DNA of 64,000 bases, taken from positions 1 to 64,000 of the forward strand of contig NZ_BRVN01000005.1 in NCBI RefSeq assembly GCF_026011735.1, in the 5' to 3' direction. This document shows, in pieces, positions 54,896-63,631 of this stretch. The stretch is from Dietzia sp. NCCP-2495. Lineage in GTDB: Bacteria; Actinomycetota; Actinomycetes; Mycobacteriales; Mycobacteriaceae. A model generated the notes under the pieces. That model was not told where the DNA came from, searched no databases, and saw nothing but the letters and a program-made list of their open reading frames with translations. The translations under genes were made by a program, and so were the position numbers. The first letter of the stretch is position 1. Each line of letters starts with the position of its first letter.

Positions 54896-55528
54896 TCAGC
54901 GGGGGACGTCGGGCTGGATACGCAGTGTGTGCAGGGCCGTGGCGAGACCGTCGTACTGGGCGATGAGCTGGACCAGCGCCACCAGCTGCGCCTCGTCCAG
55001 GTGCGTGCCGAGCTCGGCCCAGGTGTCGTCGGCGATGTCCTTGGTGCGGACCTGCTCGTCGACCGCGACCAACACGGCCCTGAGCCGGGGTGACCAGCCG
55101 GCCGTCGCGGGATCACGGGTGGTGCGGGCGATGTCGTCGTCGTCCAGTCCCACGCTGGCCCCGATCCGCTCGTGGTGAGCCCGCTCGTACGCGCTGCCCC
55201 GCACCCACGCGATGCGCAGGATCACCAGCTCGGTGGTGCGACGGTCGAGGATTCCGAACGGCATCATCATCCCCGAGTAGGCCAGCCAGGCCGGGAACAG
55301 GCGACGGGCGTGACCGAGGGTGGCGAACAGGTGGACGTCGCGCTTGCCGGTGACGCGGGCGCCGAGGCGGTTGACCGCCCAGCCGACCGGGCCGAGCTCG
55401 CGGAAACCGCCGGGGCGGATGCGGGGCGTGGCGGAGAGGGAAGGATCGGGCGCGGGGGTGTCAGTCGCGGGACTGTCGGGCGTGGGTGTGTCAGGCGTGG
55501 CGTCGGTGCTGTCGTGGGGCTGGCTCAT
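54896..55528 (-). CDS. Carboxymuconolactone decarboxylase-like (AhpD-type) protein
   Basis: 210 aa. After an Asp/Thr/Pro-rich start (STDATPDTPTPDSPATDTPA) comes a helical CMD domain: LGHARRLFPAWLAYSGMMMP, RTTELVILRIAWVRGSAYER, AHHERIGASVGLDDDDIART. The AhpD-type CxxC is absent; the motif reads RGSAYERAHH, so a peroxidase role is unlikely. Start overlaps the ramB stop (ATGA), so it is co-transcribed with ramB. Confidence 0.85.
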   Translation of the reverse strand: MSQPHDSTDATPDTPTPDSPATDTPAPDPSLSATPRIRPGGFRELGPVGWAVNRLGARVTGKRDVHLFATLGHARRLFPAWLAYSGMMMPFGILDRRTTELVILRIAWVRGSAYERAHHERIGASVGLDDDDIARTTRDPATAGWSPRLRAVLVAVDEQVRTKDIADDTWAELGTHLDEAQLVALVQLIAQYDGLATALHTLRIQPDVPR

Positions 55529-56988
55529 GGCCGCAAGGGTAGGGCAGTGGACGCGCCGGGGGAGCCGGGTTCGTCGAGGAGATAAGGGGAGAGCGCCGAG
55601 CGGTGGGCGTCGACGGTCAAGGTCCGGTTGAGCGGTGGGAACGCACGCTGCGGACAGGCCGGGCGCTCGCACATCCGGCAGCCGGGCCCGATCTTGGTGG
55701 CGGCATCCACATCCCCCAGGTCCAACCCCTGCGAGTACACGGTGCGGTGGGCGTGGCGGGCCTCGCAGCCGAGGCCGATCGCGAAGGTCTTGCGCGACTG
55801 GCCGAAGCGCATCGGGCGGGTGGTGACGGTGCGCGAGACCCACAGGTGCAGGCGGCCGTCCGGGGTCTCGGCGAGTTGTCGCATGACCTTGCCGGGGAAC
55901 GAGAACGTCTCGTACATGTTCCACAGCGGGCAGGTGCCGCCGGAGGTCGTGAAGTGCACGCCCGACGCGGACTGCCGCTTGGACATGTTCCCCGCGCGGT
56001 CGACCCGCACGAAACTGAACGGCACGCCCGCGGCGCCCGGCCGCTGCAGCGTCGACAGCCGGTGACAGATCGTCTCGTACCCCAGGGCGTGGAAGGTCAT
56101 GAGGCGCTCGACGTCGTACCGGAAGTCCTCGGCGGTGTCGAGGAACCGTTCGTACGGCATGAGGACCGCGGCGGCGAAGTAGTTCGCCAGGCCACGCCGG
56201 GCGAGGTCGCGGCCGGCGGGGGAGCTGAAGGCCCCATCCGCGACCAGCTGCTCGAGCAGCTCGCCGTGCTCGAGGAACGCCAGCTCGGAGGCGACGCGGA
56301 AGGCCTGCTGCCCGGCGGTGAGGTGGGCGGACAGGTCGAGCCGGTGGTCATCGGCGGAGAACCGGTGCCACAGGCCGTCAGGCAGGTCGACCCGGCGTGA
56401 GACGTGGATGCCGTGCGTCTCGGAGAGCCTGTTCTCGAGTTCCGTACGGACATCGCCGCGGTTCATCCGGATGCGGTTGGTGAGTTCCTCGGCCGCGGTG
56501 TCGAGGGAGTCGATGTAGTTCTGCCGCTGGTAGAAGTAGTCGCGCACCTCCTCGTGGGGCAACGCCAGGGCTGTGTGGTCGACCTCCCCGGCGAGGGCGT
56601 TGCGGCTCTCGGTGAGTGCGGCCAGCAGATCTGCCGAGTTGCGGTAGCGCTGGTTGAGGACGGCGAACGCCCGGGCGAGGCGGGGATGCGCACGGACGAG
56701 ATCGATCACCTCCGAGGCCGGGATGCCGGTCGAGACCTGGGGATCGGCCAGGGCCTCGGTCAGCTCGGCGATGAGGCGGGTGTCGGCATCCGAGGCGAAG
56801 AACGTCGAGTCGACGCCGTACACCTCCGACAACCGGGTCAGGACCCGCGAGGTGACCGGCCGGGTGTCCTTCTCGAGCTGGTTGAGGTAACTGGCGGACA
56901 GGCCGAGACTCTCCGCGAACGCGGCCTGGGTGAGGGCCTGCTCTTCGCGGAGTCGGCGGAGTCTCGATCCCATATGTGAGGGTGTCAT
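55525..56988 (-). CDS. ramB: RamB-like transcriptional regulator
   Basis: 487 aa, ScfR-type regulator. N-terminal helix-turn-helix ([40 protein letters not shown]), an ImmA/IrrE-like middle region ([17 protein letters not shown]-type helices, [20 protein letters not shown]) and a C-terminal DUF2083 part with conserved Cys ([28 protein letters not shown]). In corynebacteria RamB represses acetate genes including aceA; M. tuberculosis Rv0465c controls icl1. Here it diverges from isocitrate lyase. ATG 56988 with ggagg 10 nt upstream; the in-frame extension would cover the operator. Confidence 0.93.
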
Positions 56989-57029: not shown

Positions 57030-57076
57030 CGCAAAGTTTGCAAAAGAGGCAACGAAACTCGCGGAATTTGCACAAG
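57030..57076. promoter_or_regulatory. RamB operator-like sites between ramB and aceA
   Basis: gcaaagtttgcaaaag (57031-57046) closely resembles the known RamB motif with core (A/G)AACTTTGCAAA and is nearly palindromic with its flank; a second relative, aatttgcacaag, lies at 57065-57076. They are 42-88 nt upstream of the ramB start, so autoregulation and control of aceA are both expected. Confidence 0.7.
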
Positions 57077-57183: not shown

Positions 57184-58473
57184 ATGTCGAACGTTGGTAA
57201 GGCACGTACCGCTGCAGAGATCCAGCAGGATTGGGACACCAACCCGCGCTGGAAGGGCATCACCCGCAACTACACGGCAGAGCAGGTCGCCGAGCTGCAG
57301 GGCTCCGTCGTCGAGGAGCACACCCTCGCCCGTCGTGGCGCGGAGATCCTCTGGGACAAGGTCAACAACAAGGACTTCGTCAACTCCCTCGGTGCGCTGA
57401 CCGGTAACCAGGCCGTGCAGCAGATCCGCGCAGGCCTCGAGGCCGTGTACCTCTCCGGCTGGCAGGTCGCCGGCGACGCCAACCTCTCGGGCCACACCTA
57501 CCCGGACCAGTCGCTGTACCCGGCCAACTCGGTCCCCAGCGTCGTGCGTCGCATCAACAACGCCCTGCTGCGTGCCGACGAGATCGCCCGCATCGAGGGT
57601 GACACCTCGGTCGAGAACTGGCTCGCCCCGATCGTCGCCGACGCCGAGGCCGGCTTCGGTGGCGCCCTGAACGCCTACGAGCTGCAGAAGGCCATGATCG
57701 CCGCCGGCGCCGCCGGTGTGCACTGGGAGGACCAGCTCGCGTCGGAGAAGAAGTGCGGCCACCTCGGTGGCAAGGTGCTCATCCCGACCCAGCAGCACAT
57801 CCGCACCCTGACCTCGGCCCGCCTCGCGGCCGACGTCGCCAACGTGCCGTCCGTGATCATCGCGCGCACGGACGCCGAGGCCGCGACCCTCATCACCTCC
57901 GATGTGGACGAGCGTGACCAGGAGTTCATCACCGGCGAGCGCACCGCCGAGGGCTTCTACAACGTCCGCAACGGCATCGAGCCCTGCATCGCGCGTGCCA
58001 AGGCCTACGCCCCGTACGCCGACCTGATCTGGATGGAGACCGGCACCCCGGATCTCGAGTACGCCAAGAAGTTCGCCGAGGGCGTCAAGGCCGAGTTCCC
58101 GGACCAGCTGCTGGCCTACAACTGCTCGCCGTCCTTCAACTGGAAGGCGAACCTGGACGACGACACCATCGCCAAGTTCCAGAAGGAGCTCGGCGCCATG
58201 GGCTTCAAGTTCCAGTTCATCACCCTGGCCGGCTTCCACTCGCTCAACTACAGCATGTTCGATCTGGCCTACGGCTACGCCCGCAACCAGATGACCTCGT
58301 TCGTCGAGCTGCAGCAGCGCGAGTTCAAGGCCGCCGAGGAGCGTGGCTTCACCGCCGTCAAGCACCAGCGCGAGGTCGGCGCCGGCTACTTCGACCGCAT
58401 CGCCACCACGGTTGACCCCAACACGTCCACCGCGGCGCTGAAGGGCTCCACCGAGGAGGGTCAGTTCCACTGA
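57184..58473 (+). CDS. aceA: Isocitrate lyase
   Basis: 429 aa, first enzyme of the glyoxylate shunt, needed for growth on acetate and fatty acids. [20 protein letters not shown], catalytic loop [13 protein letters not shown] with the active-site Cys, [40 protein letters not shown]. Length and sequence fit the short ICL1/AceA class. ATG 57184 with ggaaagag upstream. Under likely RamB control; matches Rv0467 next to ramB. Confidence 0.97.
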
Positions 58474-58505
58474 CCCCTGGTCGGTCCGCAACGGACCGGC
58501 GATCA

Positions 58506-58588
58506 TCGACCCCTGACGGGTCGATGCTCACCATGACGTGAATGATCCGGGGGCCGTGGCCGTCTCGATGAGACGACCCGGCCCCCGG
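58506..58588 (+). terminator. Two hairpins after aceA
   Basis: First stem tcgaccc / gggtcga (58506-58524). Second, larger: ccgggggccg / cggcccccgg (58547-58588) enclosing cgtct / agacg. Probable aceA terminator. The rest of the gap to 58733 is gac-triplet-rich and non-coding. Confidence 0.7.
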
Positions 58589-58733
58589 AGTCGTCGGTAC
58601 GACGTGGTGGGGGAGCGCGGCGACGCCGACAACGACGACGACGACAAGGCCGACGACGACAACGGCCACGACCACGACGACGGTAACGACGACCCCGCTG
58701 ACGCCGCCCCTCTTCGACGAAAGGCACGAACGG

Positions 58734-59654
58734 ATGAGTACGACTCACGACGCGACTGCCGACCAGGGGCGAATCACGCGCGTCGGCGTGGTCGGGGCGG
58801 GTCAGATGGGATCGGGCATCGCCGAGGTGTGCGCCCGGGCCCACGTCGACGTCCTCGTCTGGGAGTCGACCCGCGAGCTGGCGGCCGCGGGCCGGGGACG
58901 TGTCCTCGACTCGCTCGACCGTGGCGTCTCCTCGGGCAAGATCACCGAACGCGAACGCGACCGGGCCGCCCTGCGCCTGCGCTTCACCACCGATCTCGGC
59001 GACTTCGCCGACCGGCAGCTGGTGATCGAGGCGATCGTGGAGGACGAGGACGCCAAGACCGCGGTGTTCCGCGAGCTGGACTCGGTGGTCACCGACCCGC
59101 AGGCCGTGCTCGCCTCCAACACTTCATCCATCCCCATCATGAAGCTCGGCACCTGCACGACGCGGCCCGAGCGCGTGATCGGGATGCACTTCTTCAACCC
59201 CGTGCCGGTGCTCCCGCTCGTCGAGCTGGTGAGCACCCTCGAGACCGGGGACCGAGTCCGGGCCCGCGCGGAGCATTTCGCGCAGCAGGTCCTGGGCAAG
59301 CAGGTCATCCACTCCGCGGACAGGTCGGGGGCGGTGGTCAACGCGCTGCTCGTGCCGTACCTGCTCTCCGCCATCCGGATGGCAGAGTCCGGCTTCGCCA
59401 CTCCCGAGGACATCGACAAGGCCATGGTCCTGGGCTGCGCGCATCCGATGGGACCGCTCTCGTTGGCCGATCATGTGGGCCTGGACACAGTCAAGGCGAT
59501 CGCGGACTCGATGTACGCCGAGTTCAGGGAGCCCATGTACGCGCCGCCCGCACTGCTCATGAGGATGGTGGAGGCGGGCAGGCTCGGCAAGAAGTCGGGA
59601 CACGGTTTCTTCCGCTACTCCGGCCCACGGGCGCTCGCACGCGTGGCACTCTGA
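58734..59654 (+). CDS. fadB2: 3-hydroxybutyryl-CoA dehydrogenase
   Basis: 306 aa NAD(P)-dependent enzyme, corresponds to Rv0468 beside icl1. Nucleotide fold VGVVGAGQMGSGIAEVCARA, LVIEAIVEDEDAKTAVFREL, catalytic region ASNTSSIPIMKLG and GMHFFNPVPVLPLVELV (His), C-terminal MGPLSLADHVGLDTVKAIAD and GRLGKKSGHGFFRY. ATG follows gaaaggcacgaacgg. metE-like gene starts 5 nt after its stop. Confidence 0.95.
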   Translation: MSTTHDATADQGRITRVGVVGAGQMGSGIAEVCARAHVDVLVWESTRELAAAGRGRVLDSLDRGVSSGKITERERDRAALRLRFTTDLGDFADRQLVIEAIVEDEDAKTAVFRELDSVVTDPQAVLASNTSSIPIMKLGTCTTRPERVIGMHFFNPVPVLPLVELVSTLETGDRVRARAEHFAQQVLGKQVIHSADRSGAVVNALLVPYLLSAIRMAESGFATPEDIDKAMVLGCAHPMGPLSLADHVGLDTVKAIADSMYAEFREPMYAPPALLMRMVEAGRLGKKSGHGFFRYSGPRALARVAL

Positions 59655-59659
59655 GGTCT

Positions 59660-61948
59660 GTGTCGTCGGCGCATCTGTCATCCACGCGCGCCTCGAGCGT
59701 CCAGGGCTTCCCGCGGATCGGTCGCCGGCGGGAACTCAAGCGTGCGCTCGAGCGCTACTGGCACGGTGACGACACCCGCGCCCAACTGGAGGCGGTAGGT
59801 CGACGAATCCGCGACTCCACCTGGCACGATCTGCACGACGCCGGACTCACTCAGCTGCCGGGCAACACGTTCTCGTTCTACGACCACATCCTCGGCGATG
59901 CCCTGCTGATCGGCGCGGTGCCCGCGCGGTTCCGGGAGCTCACCGCCGGCCTGGCCCCGGTGGACACGGTGTTCGCGCTCGCCCGCGGCCGCGCCGATGT
60001 GTCACCGCTCGAGATGGTGCAGCTACAGGGCACGAGCTACCACTATCGCCAGCCCGAGTTCTCCGCGGGGATCGAGCTGGGTTTGCGGCCTGACTCCCTG
60101 GTCGACGAGATCGTCCGGGCGCAGGGGTTCGGATACGAGCTCCGGCCCGTGGTGACGGGGCCGGTGTCCCTGTTGCTGCTCAGCAAGTCGGAGTCGGGCG
60201 CTGATCCGGGTTTCACGCCCCTGGACGTGCTGGACCGCGTGCTGGAGCAGTACGAGGCGCTGCTGCGGGTCCTGGCCGGAGCGGGCGTGACGTGCGTGCA
60301 GTTCGACGAACCGTGCCTGACGGAGGAGCGCACGCCGGACGAGATCGAGGCCCTGCGGGGTGCGTACGCACGCCTCGCGTCGGTGGCCGAGCGCCCCCGC
60401 ATCCTCGTGGCGGGCCCGTACGGGGACCTCGGTGACGCACTCCCGGCCATTGTCTCGACCGATGTCGAGGCGATCGGGCTCGACCTCGTCCGTGGACGAC
60501 GTTCGGCGGCCGAGCTTGCCGCGGTTCCGGGAATGCGGGGCAAGCGCCTCTACGCCGGTGTGGTCGACGGCCAGAACGTCTGGCGCACAGACAAGTTCGC
60601 GACCCTGGACTACCTGCGCGACCTCAAGGCCGAGTTCGAAGATCTGGTCGTGACGACCTCGTGCTCCCTCTTGCACGTCCCGTACGACGTCCGTGTCGAG
60701 AACGGGCTTCCGGTGGAGCTGGCGGATTCGCTCGCGTTCGCCGACCAGAAGGTCGACGAGGTGGTGTCCCTGGCCGCCGCGCTCGAGGACGGGCCCACCC
60801 CGCGCTGGCGTCCGCTCCCCGCCCTGCCCAGCGCGCGTCGGGACGATGTGCGGGCCAGGACGGCCGGGGTCGACGACGACGACAGGGCGCGCAGCCCCTA
60901 TCCCGAGCGCGCCGCCGTGCAGGCTGCCCGGCTCGGCCTGCCGGTGCTTCCCACGTCGACGCTGGGCTCGTTCCCGCAGACCGTACAGATCCGGCGGGCC
61001 CGTCTGGACCTGGCCGAGGGCCGGATCGACTACGACCGCTACCGGGACTACCTGCGCGCCGAGATCGCCGCGGTGATCCGACTGCAGGAGGACATGGGAC
61101 TGGACGTCCTGGTGCACGGCGAGGTCGAGCGCAACGACATGGTGCAGTACTTTGCCGAGTTGCTCGACGGGTTCGCCGCGACCAGTCAGGGGTGGGTGCA
61201 GTCGTACGGCTCGCGCTGCGTACGACCGCCGATTCTCTACGGCGACGTGGCCCGTCCCGCGCCCATGACGGTGGAGTGGACCGGGTACGCGCAGTCGTTG
61301 ACCAGTCGGCCGGTGAAGGGGATCCTCACCGGCCCCGTGACGATGTTGGCGAGGTCGTTCTGCCGCACGGATCTCGCGTTGCCCGAGGTTGCCACACAGC
61401 TGGCGTTGGTGATCCGCGACGAGGTCGCGGATCTCGAGGCTGCGGGGACCGCGATCATCCAGGTCGACGAGCCGGCGCTGCGGGAGTTGCTGCCCCGGCG
61501 CGGCGCGGACCGTCAGGCGTATCTCGACTGGGCGGTGGGCACGTTCCGGCTCGCCACCGCCGGCGCGGGGCCGCAGACGCAGATCCACACGCACCTGGGC
61601 TACTCGTCGCTGACGGTGATGACCGAGGCGATCGAGGATCTCGACGCGGATGTGACGAACATCGTCGCCACGAGGTCGATCGACTGGGTGCTCGACGCTC
61701 TGCAGGACCGCACACTCACGCGCCAGGTCGGCCCCGGTGTGTATGAGTCGCGTTCGGGGTTCGTCCCGGATATCGACCTGATGCACGAGCGCCTCCTCAA
61801 AGGGGTGGAGGCGGTCGGGGTCGATCGCCTGTGGGCGGTCCCTGACGGCGGGTTGAAGAGCCGGTACACCTGGCAGTTGGAGCCCAGTCTGCGGAATCTG
61901 GTGACCGCCGCGCGCCGGATCCGGCGGGCGATTGCCCGGGACTGCTGA
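59660..61948 (+). CDS. MetE-like cobalamin-independent methionine synthase homologue without its zinc ligands
   Basis: 762 aa with both MetE halves: N-terminal GFPRIGRRRELKRALERYW and QLQGTSYHYRQPEF; C-terminal STLGSFPQTVQIRRARLDL, VLVHGEVERNDMVQYFAELL and IIQVDEPALRELLP. In E. coli MetE the catalytic zinc is held by His641, Cys643, Glu665 and Cys726. Aligning without gaps (offset +4), this protein has His645, Gly647 (IHTHLGYSS), Val669 (NIVATRS) and Gly730 (VPDGGLKSR). Three of four ligands are lost while the fold motifs remain. It may not methylate homocysteine the usual way. GTG start 59660 has gagg 4 nt upstream; likely one operon with fadB2. Confidence 0.9.
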   Translation: MSSAHLSSTRASSVQGFPRIGRRRELKRALERYWHGDDTRAQLEAVGRRIRDSTWHDLHDAGLTQLPGNTFSFYDHILGDALLIGAVPARFRELTAGLAPVDTVFALARGRADVSPLEMVQLQGTSYHYRQPEFSAGIELGLRPDSLVDEIVRAQGFGYELRPVVTGPVSLLLLSKSESGADPGFTPLDVLDRVLEQYEALLRVLAGAGVTCVQFDEPCLTEERTPDEIEALRGAYARLASVAERPRILVAGPYGDLGDALPAIVSTDVEAIGLDLVRGRRSAAELAAVPGMRGKRLYAGVVDGQNVWRTDKFATLDYLRDLKAEFEDLVVTTSCSLLHVPYDVRVENGLPVELADSLAFADQKVDEVVSLAAALEDGPTPRWRPLPALPSARRDDVRARTAGVDDDDRARSPYPERAAVQAARLGLPVLPTSTLGSFPQTVQIRRARLDLAEGRIDYDRYRDYLRAEIAAVIRLQEDMGLDVLVHGEVERNDMVQYFAELLDGFAATSQGWVQSYGSRCVRPPILYGDVARPAPMTVEWTGYAQSLTSRPVKGILTGPVTMLARSFCRTDLALPEVATQLALVIRDEVADLEAAGTAIIQVDEPALRELLPRRGADRQAYLDWAVGTFRLATAGAGPQTQIHTHLGYSSLTVMTEAIEDLDADVTNIVATRSIDWVLDALQDRTLTRQVGPGVYESRSGFVPDIDLMHERLLKGVEAVGVDRLWAVPDGGLKSRYTWQLEPSLRNLVTAARRIRRAIARDC

Positions 61949-62027
61949 GGGTCTAATAGGATCACTGGTGATACAAGTCCGGCACCGTGGGTGCGGGATA
62001 GGTAGACCGAGAGAAGAGGACGCCATC

Positions 62028-62336
62028 ATGGCCGGTCAGACGCTCGAGCACACTGGTGCCGCCATCGTCGAGGAGTACTACCCGGAATATGCGACGACCG
62101 AGGCTCCCGTGTACACGCTGTACTCGGGGCCGCTGTACCTCGGTTCGGCCATCATCCTGCTGAGCATGTGCATGCTCGGTCTGCCGCTCACCGCGGCGGG
62201 CTACTTCGCGGACGACATGGGCGTCTCCATGGGTCTCGTCATCGCCGCCGTCGTGGCCACCGCCGTCGTGTTCCTGGTCGGTCTCGGCATCTGCTTTTAC
62301 GCGTTCCGCAAGCACGGGCGTGAGGACGGGCACTGA
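62028..62336 (+). CDS. Small membrane protein with two helices
   Basis: 102 aa. Acidic/Tyr-rich N-terminus (TGAAIVEEYYPEYATTEAPV) then YLGSAIILLSMCMLGLPLTA and SMGLVIAAVVATAVVFLVGL, ending in a basic tail (YAFRKHGREDGH). No family recognised. gagaagagga lies 7 nt before ATG. Confidence 0.72.
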   Translation: MAGQTLEHTGAAIVEEYYPEYATTEAPVYTLYSGPLYLGSAIILLSMCMLGLPLTAAGYFADDMGVSMGLVIAAVVATAVVFLVGLGICFYAFRKHGREDGH

Positions 62337-62361
62337 CAGTCGGTTCCGCCGTCACGACGGC

Positions 62362-62380
62362 ACCCGCCTTCAAGGCGGGT
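62362..62380 (+). terminator. Hairpin after the small membrane gene
   Basis: acccgcc / ggcgggt stem with a 5-nt loop, 26 nt after the stop. Confidence 0.5.
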
Positions 62381-62400
62381 GATCCGTCGGACGACGCTGC

Positions 62401-62419
62401 GCGGAGGGTCGCCCTCCGC
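62401..62419 (+). promoter_or_regulatory. Inverted repeat covering the DUF445 ribosome-binding site
   Basis: gcggaggg-tcg-ccctccgc: an 8-bp stem in which the only SD-like sequence (ggaggg) before ATG 62423 is paired. It may limit translation. Confidence 0.5.
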
Positions 62420-62422
62420 CGG

Positions 62423-63631
62423 ATGAAGTTGGTCGCGACGGGGTTCCTCGTCGCGGCCGGTCTCGTTTATCTGGCCGCCGAGTACTGGCTCCACAACGGC
62501 GGACCGCAGTGGGTCAACTATGTGCGTGCCGCCGCGGAGGCGGGCATGGTCGGCGGTCTCGCCGACTGGTTCGCCGTGACCGCGCTGTTCCGGCACCCGC
62601 TCGGGATCCCGATCCCGCACACGGCGCTCATCCGCAAGAAGAAGGACCAGCTCGGCGACTCTCTCGGCGGGTTCGTGGGGGAGAACTTCCTCGATCCCGA
62701 GATGGTGAGCGAGAAGGTCCGCAGCGCCCACATCCCCGAGCGTGCCGGCGAATGGCTGGCGGTCGACGAGAACCGTGCTCTCGCCTCCGACCAGGCGGCC
62801 AAGGCCATCCGCTCGACTCTCGCGGTCCTCCGCGACGAGGACGCCGTCGCGATCATCGAACGCACTATCGTCGCCCGCATCGCGGAGCCCCAGTGGGGTC
62901 CACCGGCTGGTCGCATCCTCGCTGAACTGTTGGAGGAGGGGCGTCACCTCCCGCTCATGGATCTCATGGCCGACCGGGCCTACGGCTGGGTCGACGCCCA
63001 TCCGGAGACCATCGACCGCTGGGTCCGCGAGAAGGCGCCGACGTGGGCGCCCGAATTCGTCAACGAGCTGCTCTCTGACCGTGCGTACCGCGAGTTGTCC
63101 GAATGGACGTGGCAGATCAAGGTCGACAAGCAGCACGCGGTGCGGCTCGCCCTGATCGGGTTCGTCGAGGACTTCGCCCGCGATCTGCAGTCCGATCCGG
63201 CCACCATGGCCAAGCTCGAGACGTTCAAGCACGAGGTCATGAACCGCGACGAGGTGCGCCGTGCCGCCGGCTCGGCGTGGGCGTCCGCCAAGCGGATGAT
63301 CGTCGAGGCCACCGAGGACACCTCCTCCACGTTGCGCGTCAAGATCGACGACCTGCTGCGGCGGTTGTCCGAGATGCTGGTCGGCGACGAGAAGGTGCGC
63401 AACCGCCTCGACGACTACATGACCCGCACCGCCGCGTACGTCGCGGAGAACTACGCGGGTGAGGTGACGTCGATCATCTCCGAGACGGTCGAGCGGTGGG
63501 ACGCCGATGAGGCCTCGGAGAAGATCGAACTGCTCGCCGGCAAGGATCTGCAGTTCATCCGCATCAACGGCACGGTCGTCGGTGCGCTCGCGGGCCTGGC
63601 GATCTATACCGCCACCCAGCTCATCTTCTGA
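62423..63631 (+). CDS. DUF445 membrane protein (YjiN-like)
   Basis: 402 aa. N-terminal helix (LVATGFLVAAGLVYLAAEYW), DUF445 signature AGMVGGLADWFAVTALFRHP, LGIPIPHTALIRKKKDQLGD, a long helical middle, and a C-terminal membrane helix (NGTVVGALAGLAIYTATQLI). In-frame codons upstream (DPSDDAARRVALRR) look like the usual family N-terminus, but no ATG, GTG or TTG opens them; the nearest is a CTG at 62333. Function of the family is unknown. Confidence 0.88.
   Translation: MKLVATGFLVAAGLVYLAAEYWLHNGGPQWVNYVRAAAEAGMVGGLADWFAVTALFRHPLGIPIPHTALIRKKKDQLGDSLGGFVGENFLDPEMVSEKVRSAHIPERAGEWLAVDENRALASDQAAKAIRSTLAVLRDEDAVAIIERTIVARIAEPQWGPPAGRILAELLEEGRHLPLMDLMADRAYGWVDAHPETIDRWVREKAPTWAPEFVNELLSDRAYRELSEWTWQIKVDKQHAVRLALIGFVEDFARDLQSDPATMAKLETFKHEVMNRDEVRRAAGSAWASAKRMIVEATEDTSSTLRVKIDDLLRRLSEMLVGDEKVRNRLDDYMTRTAAYVAENYAGEVTSIISETVERWDADEASEKIELLAGKDLQFIRINGTVVGALAGLAIYTATQLIF

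Follow-up and report, generated by a model that had tools for sequence, protein, structure and literature searches.

The gene at positions 59660..61948 of the window (the whole 64-kb stretch of DNA that was analysed) encodes a homologue of the methionine synthase MetE in which the His-Cys-Glu-Cys zinc site has become His-Gly-Val-Gly. It belongs to a discrete group of zinc-less proteins, termed A-type throughout, and canonical MetE here denotes the proteins that carry all four ligands (B). With a probability of about 60%, we consider the A-type protein to be a neofunctionalised MetE paralogue, a double barrel that binds an amino acid and serves in the acetate/glyoxylate response, and not a methionine synthase. 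The DNA is assigned to a Dietzia, its closest named relative being Dietzia aerolata.

59660..61948, + strand: A-type (zinc-less) MetE homologue, 762 amino acids, two barrels (open reading frame, Pfam and alignment)

The reading frame runs uninterrupted from a GTG start codon at 59660 to a TGA stop at 61948, and its start lies 5 nt behind the stop codon of fadB2. Pfam searches matched PF08267 to residues 12-325 and PF01717 to residues 430-752, both over nearly their whole length, and returned no other domain for this protein; the MetE fold is thus intact, as a sequence-only reading of this DNA had proposed. The nearest solved structure was 1u1h (E 1.3e-179), which has the same sequence as 1u1j, an Arabidopsis MetE (PMC7857596). 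A 668 amino acid open frame on the opposite strand (60023-62029, - strand) is apparently a side effect of the high G+C codon usage.

Alignment to 1u1h placed the four zinc-site positions of the window protein as follows.

61592..61594, + strand: His645, the sole zinc ligand retained (Thermotoga maritima His618)
61598..61600, + strand: Gly647, codon GGC, replacing a ligand Cys (T. maritima Cys620)
61664..61666, + strand: Val669, codon GTC, replacing the ligand Glu (T. maritima Glu642)
61847..61849, + strand: Gly730, codon GGC, replacing a ligand Cys (T. maritima Cys704)

These are the residues and codons named by the sequence-only reading. The search for further members with H-G-V-G that it suggested succeeded in a broader form, in that Cys, Glu and Cys are missing from the ligand sites of all 93 A-type proteins and His645 is retained, whilst the exact H-G-V-G pattern occurred in only 12. 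The remaining patterns were HTVG (49), HSVG (12), HAVG (9), HNVG (4), HGIG (3), HPVG (2), HGVF (1) and HEVG (1). Position 647 is therefore free across the group (T, G, S, A, N, P or E), position 669 is Val in 90 proteins and Ile in three, and position 730 is Gly in 92 and Phe in one. An isolated mutation was ruled out by this uniform loss, and sequencing errors at the three codons were excluded because the 93 proteins are distinct and derive from many genome records. A conserved alternative set of metal ligands had also been raised; the His, Cys and acidic residues gained in the A-type proteins (H35, C212, D328, D356, E659, E696 and D704) formed no replacement cluster evident by sequence among the 93.

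The two groups were separated without intermediates at each sampling. A first alignment of 112 rows comprised 49 H-x-V-G rows, three of which were the window protein itself, and 63 H-C-E-C rows. The enlarged set held 158 distinct proteins, 93 A-type and 65 canonical with four ligands each; thirteen loci had been omitted (those of the window's own genome, MetH loci, near-duplicates and the partial gene L088), a protein was obtained from all 164 loci that were left, and identical proteins were merged. Partial genes such as L088 were left out of the residue counts, and the gene pieces of G006 and G019 entered only the identity count. Identity to the window protein was at least 57.2% for A-type proteins and at most 55.0% for canonical ones (49-55% for 63 canonical actinobacterial MetE). 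A circular grouping was considered, given that A and B were first split by residue 669, and was ruled out since a split by overall identity returned the same 93 and 65 proteins. In an IQ-TREE phylogeny of 52 rows, with the root drawn at the midpoint, one branch with support 100/100 divided all 28 A-type from all 24 canonical sequences; the A-type group presumably descends from canonical MetE. Near-invariant positions numbered 283 in the 93 A-type proteins against 215 in the 65 canonical ones, although the A-type proteins also resemble one another more (median identity 69%, canonical 63%).

Annotation models treated the groups unevenly. The TIGR01371 cut-off was missed by all five A-type proteins tried and passed by all four canonical MetE, whereas PRK05222, the NCBI methionine-synthase equivalog, was passed by all nine proteins tested (the window protein, four of four other A-type and four canonical), the window protein scoring 888 bits against a cut-off of 541. 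The acceptance of A-type proteins by PRK05222 may explain their label as methionine synthases.

Residue roles beyond the zinc site follow the published structure of T. maritima MetE and were transferred by alignment. In that enzyme, Trp539 stacks on the pterin, Lys104 binds pterin O4 and Glu583 binds pterin N3/2-NH2; His672, Asp467 and His111 are invariant candidate proton donors; and homocysteine is contacted by Asp577 and Glu462 (amino group), Ser411 (carboxylate) and Met468 (PMC539065). The corresponding residues of the window protein are listed below.

60968..60970, + strand: Ser437, homocysteine carboxylate (T. maritima Ser411), kept in 93/93 A-type proteins
61121..61123, + strand: Glu488, homocysteine amino group (T. 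maritima Glu462), kept in 93/93
61139..61141, + strand: Met494, homocysteine contact (T. maritima Met468), kept in 93/93
61352..61354, + strand: Arg565, replacing the pterin-stacking Trp (T. maritima Trp539), by alignment
61466..61468, + strand: Asp603, homocysteine amino group (T. maritima Asp577), kept in 93/93
61484..61486, + strand: Glu609 (T. maritima Glu583), Glu in 88/93
61745..61753, + strand: Glu696-Ser697-Arg698, replacing Asp-Ile-His (T. maritima 670-672), by alignment

The claim that the substrate motifs are intact thus stood for the homocysteine pocket and failed for folate, where Arg565, Gln121 and an altered YDIHSP motif were found. The pterin-stacking Trp is gone from every A-type protein (R in 88, F in three, L in two), and the candidate acid His equivalent to His672 is gone from 91 of them, all with Arg698, with H in the other two; YDIHSP reads YESRS in the window protein and in most of the group. 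Gln121 stands in the place of Lys104, which is Lys in 15 of the 93. The Asp467 equivalent (D493) is present throughout and that of His111 in 58 of 93, the window protein having both. Residues 565 and 609 covary, with Arg/Glu in 88 proteins and Phe or Leu/Thr in exactly the five that have Thr609, though these five may share ancestry and are possibly not independent; this hints at a pairing of Arg565 with Glu609, the residue that formerly bound the pterin. In that sub-group (L166, L167, L170, L176 and L177) the pterin-binding Glu is accordingly also gone. New near-invariant residues occur in both barrels, among them R130, Q131, R153, R247, R296, W383, W676, E696 and W738. The basic groove for the folate tail persists (R24, R519 and R522 in 93/93, K27 in 91/93), and because this groove and, in 88 of 93 proteins, Glu609 are retained, a folate-like ligand could still be accommodated. 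A polyglutamate cofactor similar to F420 was considered for this groove, purely as an idea.

Under the favoured reading, the A-type protein would bind an amino acid or amino-acid-like ligand through Ser437, Glu488 and Asp603 without a metal. Arg565, probably paired with Glu609, would fill the place of the pterin stack, such that ordinary methyl-folate would no longer be productively bound, and the protein would act as an enzyme when the glyoxylate shunt is on, as during growth on acetate, ethanol or fatty acids. The remodelling of the pterin site makes it less likely that the protein serves a new methyl acceptor while still drawing on methyl-folate as donor. A doubtful alternative is a catalytically dead pseudoenzyme, whose double barrel would take up methionine, homocysteine or a similar amino acid and sense, scaffold or buffer on behalf of the enzymes of the glyoxylate shunt; in its favour, the zinc site, the pterin stack and (in 91 of 93) the candidate acid are lost around an untouched amino-acid pocket, and position 647 varies as expected of a side chain without work. 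However, E696 (93/93), R698 (91/93) and R565 (88/93) make the old reaction site look rebuilt, not abandoned, and Pfam shows no additional domain. The neofunctionalised-paralogue reading has points against it as well, namely the kept folate-tail groove, Glu609, the PRK05222 acceptance, a RamB-like box in only 8 of 15 loci and the absence of the gene from 25 of 91 family genomes.

The supply of methionine was examined in the same genomes. The A-type gene is the only PF01717 gene in the window's genome, in which an open MetH reading frame lies elsewhere; that frame contains GGCCG, a zinc-ligand motif. The question of a normal MetE or MetH in the genome was thereby answered in the negative for MetE and in the positive for an open MetH frame. 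The MetH domain PF02965 was found in all 26 genomes that have an A-type gene and no canonical MetE match, these being single-match genomes with the less complete G022 and G169 omitted, and canonical MetE may have been missed in some, as the family search scored some first-look candidates per genome. The cobalamin riboswitch RF00174 lay upstream of five of six canonical metE loci and was found at none of six A-type loci, and no Rfam family was matched in the window between 54000 and 64000. Methionine would thus be made by MetH, or by canonical MetE, and not by the A-type protein. That the protein is instead a zinc-free or alternatively metallated methionine synthase, methylating homocysteine from methyl-folate or another donor, appears improbable: the fold, the homocysteine pocket, D493 and the folate-tail groove are retained, PRK05222 accepts the window protein, and a probable A-type protein has been treated as MetE in Rhodococcus qingshengii (PMC8557817), but the gained acidic, His and Cys residues form no evident replacement set, the pterin Trp (93/93) and the His at site 698 (91/93) are lost, and both the MetH distribution and the missing riboswitch argue the other way.

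The A-type gene, scored at 57% identity or above, was present in 66 of 151 genomes, all within the window's own family (66 of its 91 genomes, and 21 of the 23 of its genus); by identity these comprise 64 full-length and two partial genes, the zinc sites having been read in part of them. Among the 60 genomes of other families, no full-length match at or above 57% was found. One of them, G121, holds broken gene pieces with up to 74% identity over 57 residues. In a further genus, where one genome's A-type protein shows no difference over the query from the Rhodococcus wratislaviensis protein, the gene was found in 27 of 28 genomes, with a canonical-type MetE match (52-54%) in 23 and both types in 22. 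A second kind of MetE-like match, about 30% identical to residues 428-649 and probably representing a single-barrel relative, is present in at least 15 of the 23 genomes of the window's genus. A mobile gene was rejected following a tblastn search of plasmids, where 329 records matched, all below 60% identity; among the 15 matches listed, the top one was a 2.66-Mb Nocardia farcinica replicon (59.7%) and the rest were at most 51.5%.

The genes that surround the A-type gene are those of carbon metabolism, as had been proposed, and the 5-nt spacing behind fadB2 was borne out.

55525..56988, - strand: RamB-type regulator transcribed away from aceA, with HTH, IrrE-like and ScfRs domains (inferred start)
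57033..57044, + strand: RamB-box-like AAAGTTTGCAAA, between ramB and aceA
57184..58473, + strand: aceA, isocitrate lyase, upstream (start chosen in this analysis)
58734..59654, + strand: fadB2, 3-hydroxyacyl-CoA dehydrogenase family, upstream neighbour
62423-63631, + strand: DUF445 protein, downstream of the A-type gene

The order aceA-fadB2-A, in the same orientation, recurred at all 20 further loci analysed with 5-kb flanks, one per genome and picked for having the A-type gene, with L173 cut by a contig end. In an earlier set of 28 A-type loci, aceA could be identified at 24 and fadB2 at 22; several of the four and six loci, respectively, where they were not recognised hold short upstream DNA. 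A DUF445 homologue was located within the fetched stretch at 11 of the 20 further loci, at varying distance. Co-transcription of the A-type gene with fadB2 would be in line with its position. A scan of 58400-62500 detected no promoter-like site, and one terminator-like site (62428-62461) that lies inside the DUF445 gene and is not above chance.

The divergent regulator beside aceA is presumably RamB. The 64-kb window contains a single copy of the core TTTGCAAA, where 0.02 would be expected; it lies between ramB and aceA. When up to two mismatches were allowed, the 12-mer was present in eight of 15 loci and absent from seven. The published RamB site of Corynebacterium glutamicum is AA/GAACTTTGCAAA (PMC4448153). 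Position and this one box make RamB control of the locus a lead, not a result.

Purifying selection acts on the A-type gene. By the Nei-Gojobori method, the seven genes compared within the genus (21 pairs) gave dN/dS values of 0.13-0.21, and 10 pairs drawn from other genera gave 0.08-0.19. Since 25 of the 91 family genomes, including two of the 23 of the genus, lack the gene, it is not essential everywhere, and at 14 of 14 loci without it no remnant was detected by tblastn. Two such loci within the genus (L178 and L179, of G016 and G004) keep ramB-aceA-fadB2, and the DUF445 gene known from the downstream side of the A-type gene in the window comes about 0.6 kb after it. A decaying gene, a pseudogene in the making that is open by chance, might be suspected from these absences; the low dN/dS, the clean absences and the high number of near-invariant positions (in a more closely related set, as noted) in effect refute it, and we regard it as hardly credible. 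The proposal that the gene is intact and selected for a different role was supported by the fully supported branch, the dN/dS values of the genus, the invariant new residues, the conserved neighbourhood, the 14 clean absences and the MetH frame elsewhere in the genome.

Compared with MetE proper (EC 2.1.1.14; Escherichia coli, T. maritima and Arabidopsis), A-type proteins share the PF08267 and PF01717 barrels and the homocysteine and folate-tail residues, but lack three zinc ligands, the pterin Trp and, in 91 of 93, the candidate acid His, and miss TIGR01371; unlike canonical metE, their genes have the aceA-fadB2 neighbourhood and no B12 riboswitch. Loss of zinc residues within the MetE superfamily has a parallel in the MesB-like proteins of Chloroflexales, for which Price et al. 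2021 propose another function (PMC7857596). Those proteins, however, are relatives of the single-barrel 'core' synthases, with sites FSHG, YCDQ or YREQ (PMC7857596), whereas A-type proteins have two barrels, read H-x-V-G, come from a different phylum and stand in a different gene context. The core methionine synthases MesA-MesD are homologous to the catalytic barrel and lack the N-terminal barrel, and the zinc residues are described as highly conserved in MesA, MesB and MesD (PMC7857596); in the A-type protein the N-terminal barrel is present and the zinc site is gone. In the open-access literature, covered mostly at the level of titles and abstracts, no description of a zinc-less full-length MetE or of an aceA-fadB2-metE cluster was found.

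Published proteomic data may bear on the function of the group. Rhodococcus qingshengii presumably falls within the Rhodococcus genus searched here, whose A-type proteins have two cysteines in 21 of 27 cases, one in four and three in two; canonical MetE has at least three in the stretch aligned to residues 12-758 (63/63). In R. qingshengii IGTS8, a "MetE", listed in a table as peg5907, was induced 190-273-fold (PMC8557817), and as this protein has two cysteines it is probably A-type. The authors took the sulfur source as the sole variable and read the induction as methionine demand, in a medium that contained B12 (PMC8557817). In the text of that study, dibenzothiophene comes from a stock in ethanol, and ethanol is not mentioned for the cultures on sulfate (PMC8557817); by arithmetic, 0.5 mM from a 100 mM stock is 0.5% by volume. 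Another IGTS8 paper reports better desulfurization on ethanol and poor desulfurization on glucose (PMC9426449). With ethanol as carrier in one arm and as the better carbon source, ethanol rather than sulfur may explain the induction.

A bolder proposal, which we put a little below even odds, is that the A-type proteins of Dietzia, Rhodococcus, Nocardia and related genera form a new enzyme family, metal-free and pterin-free, acting on an amino-acid substrate, a regular but overlooked member of the glyoxylate-shunt cluster and strongly induced in ethanol-containing culture in at least one proteomics study, which assigned the protein to sulfur metabolism. In 66 of the 91 genomes of this large actinobacterial family, a gene that scores as a methionine synthase is probably not one; to count it as MetE in metabolic models, or to take its expression as a sign of methionine demand, would then be an error. 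The group would offer a natural dissection of MetE, with the amino-acid pocket intact and the zinc and pterin chemistry replaced, in a neighbourhood that points to C2/fatty-acid metabolism. One plastic region described in a Nocardia genome paper includes a metE together with an isocitrate lyase and three genes of citrate metabolism (PMC3751702), in keeping with the aceA-fadB2-A locus.
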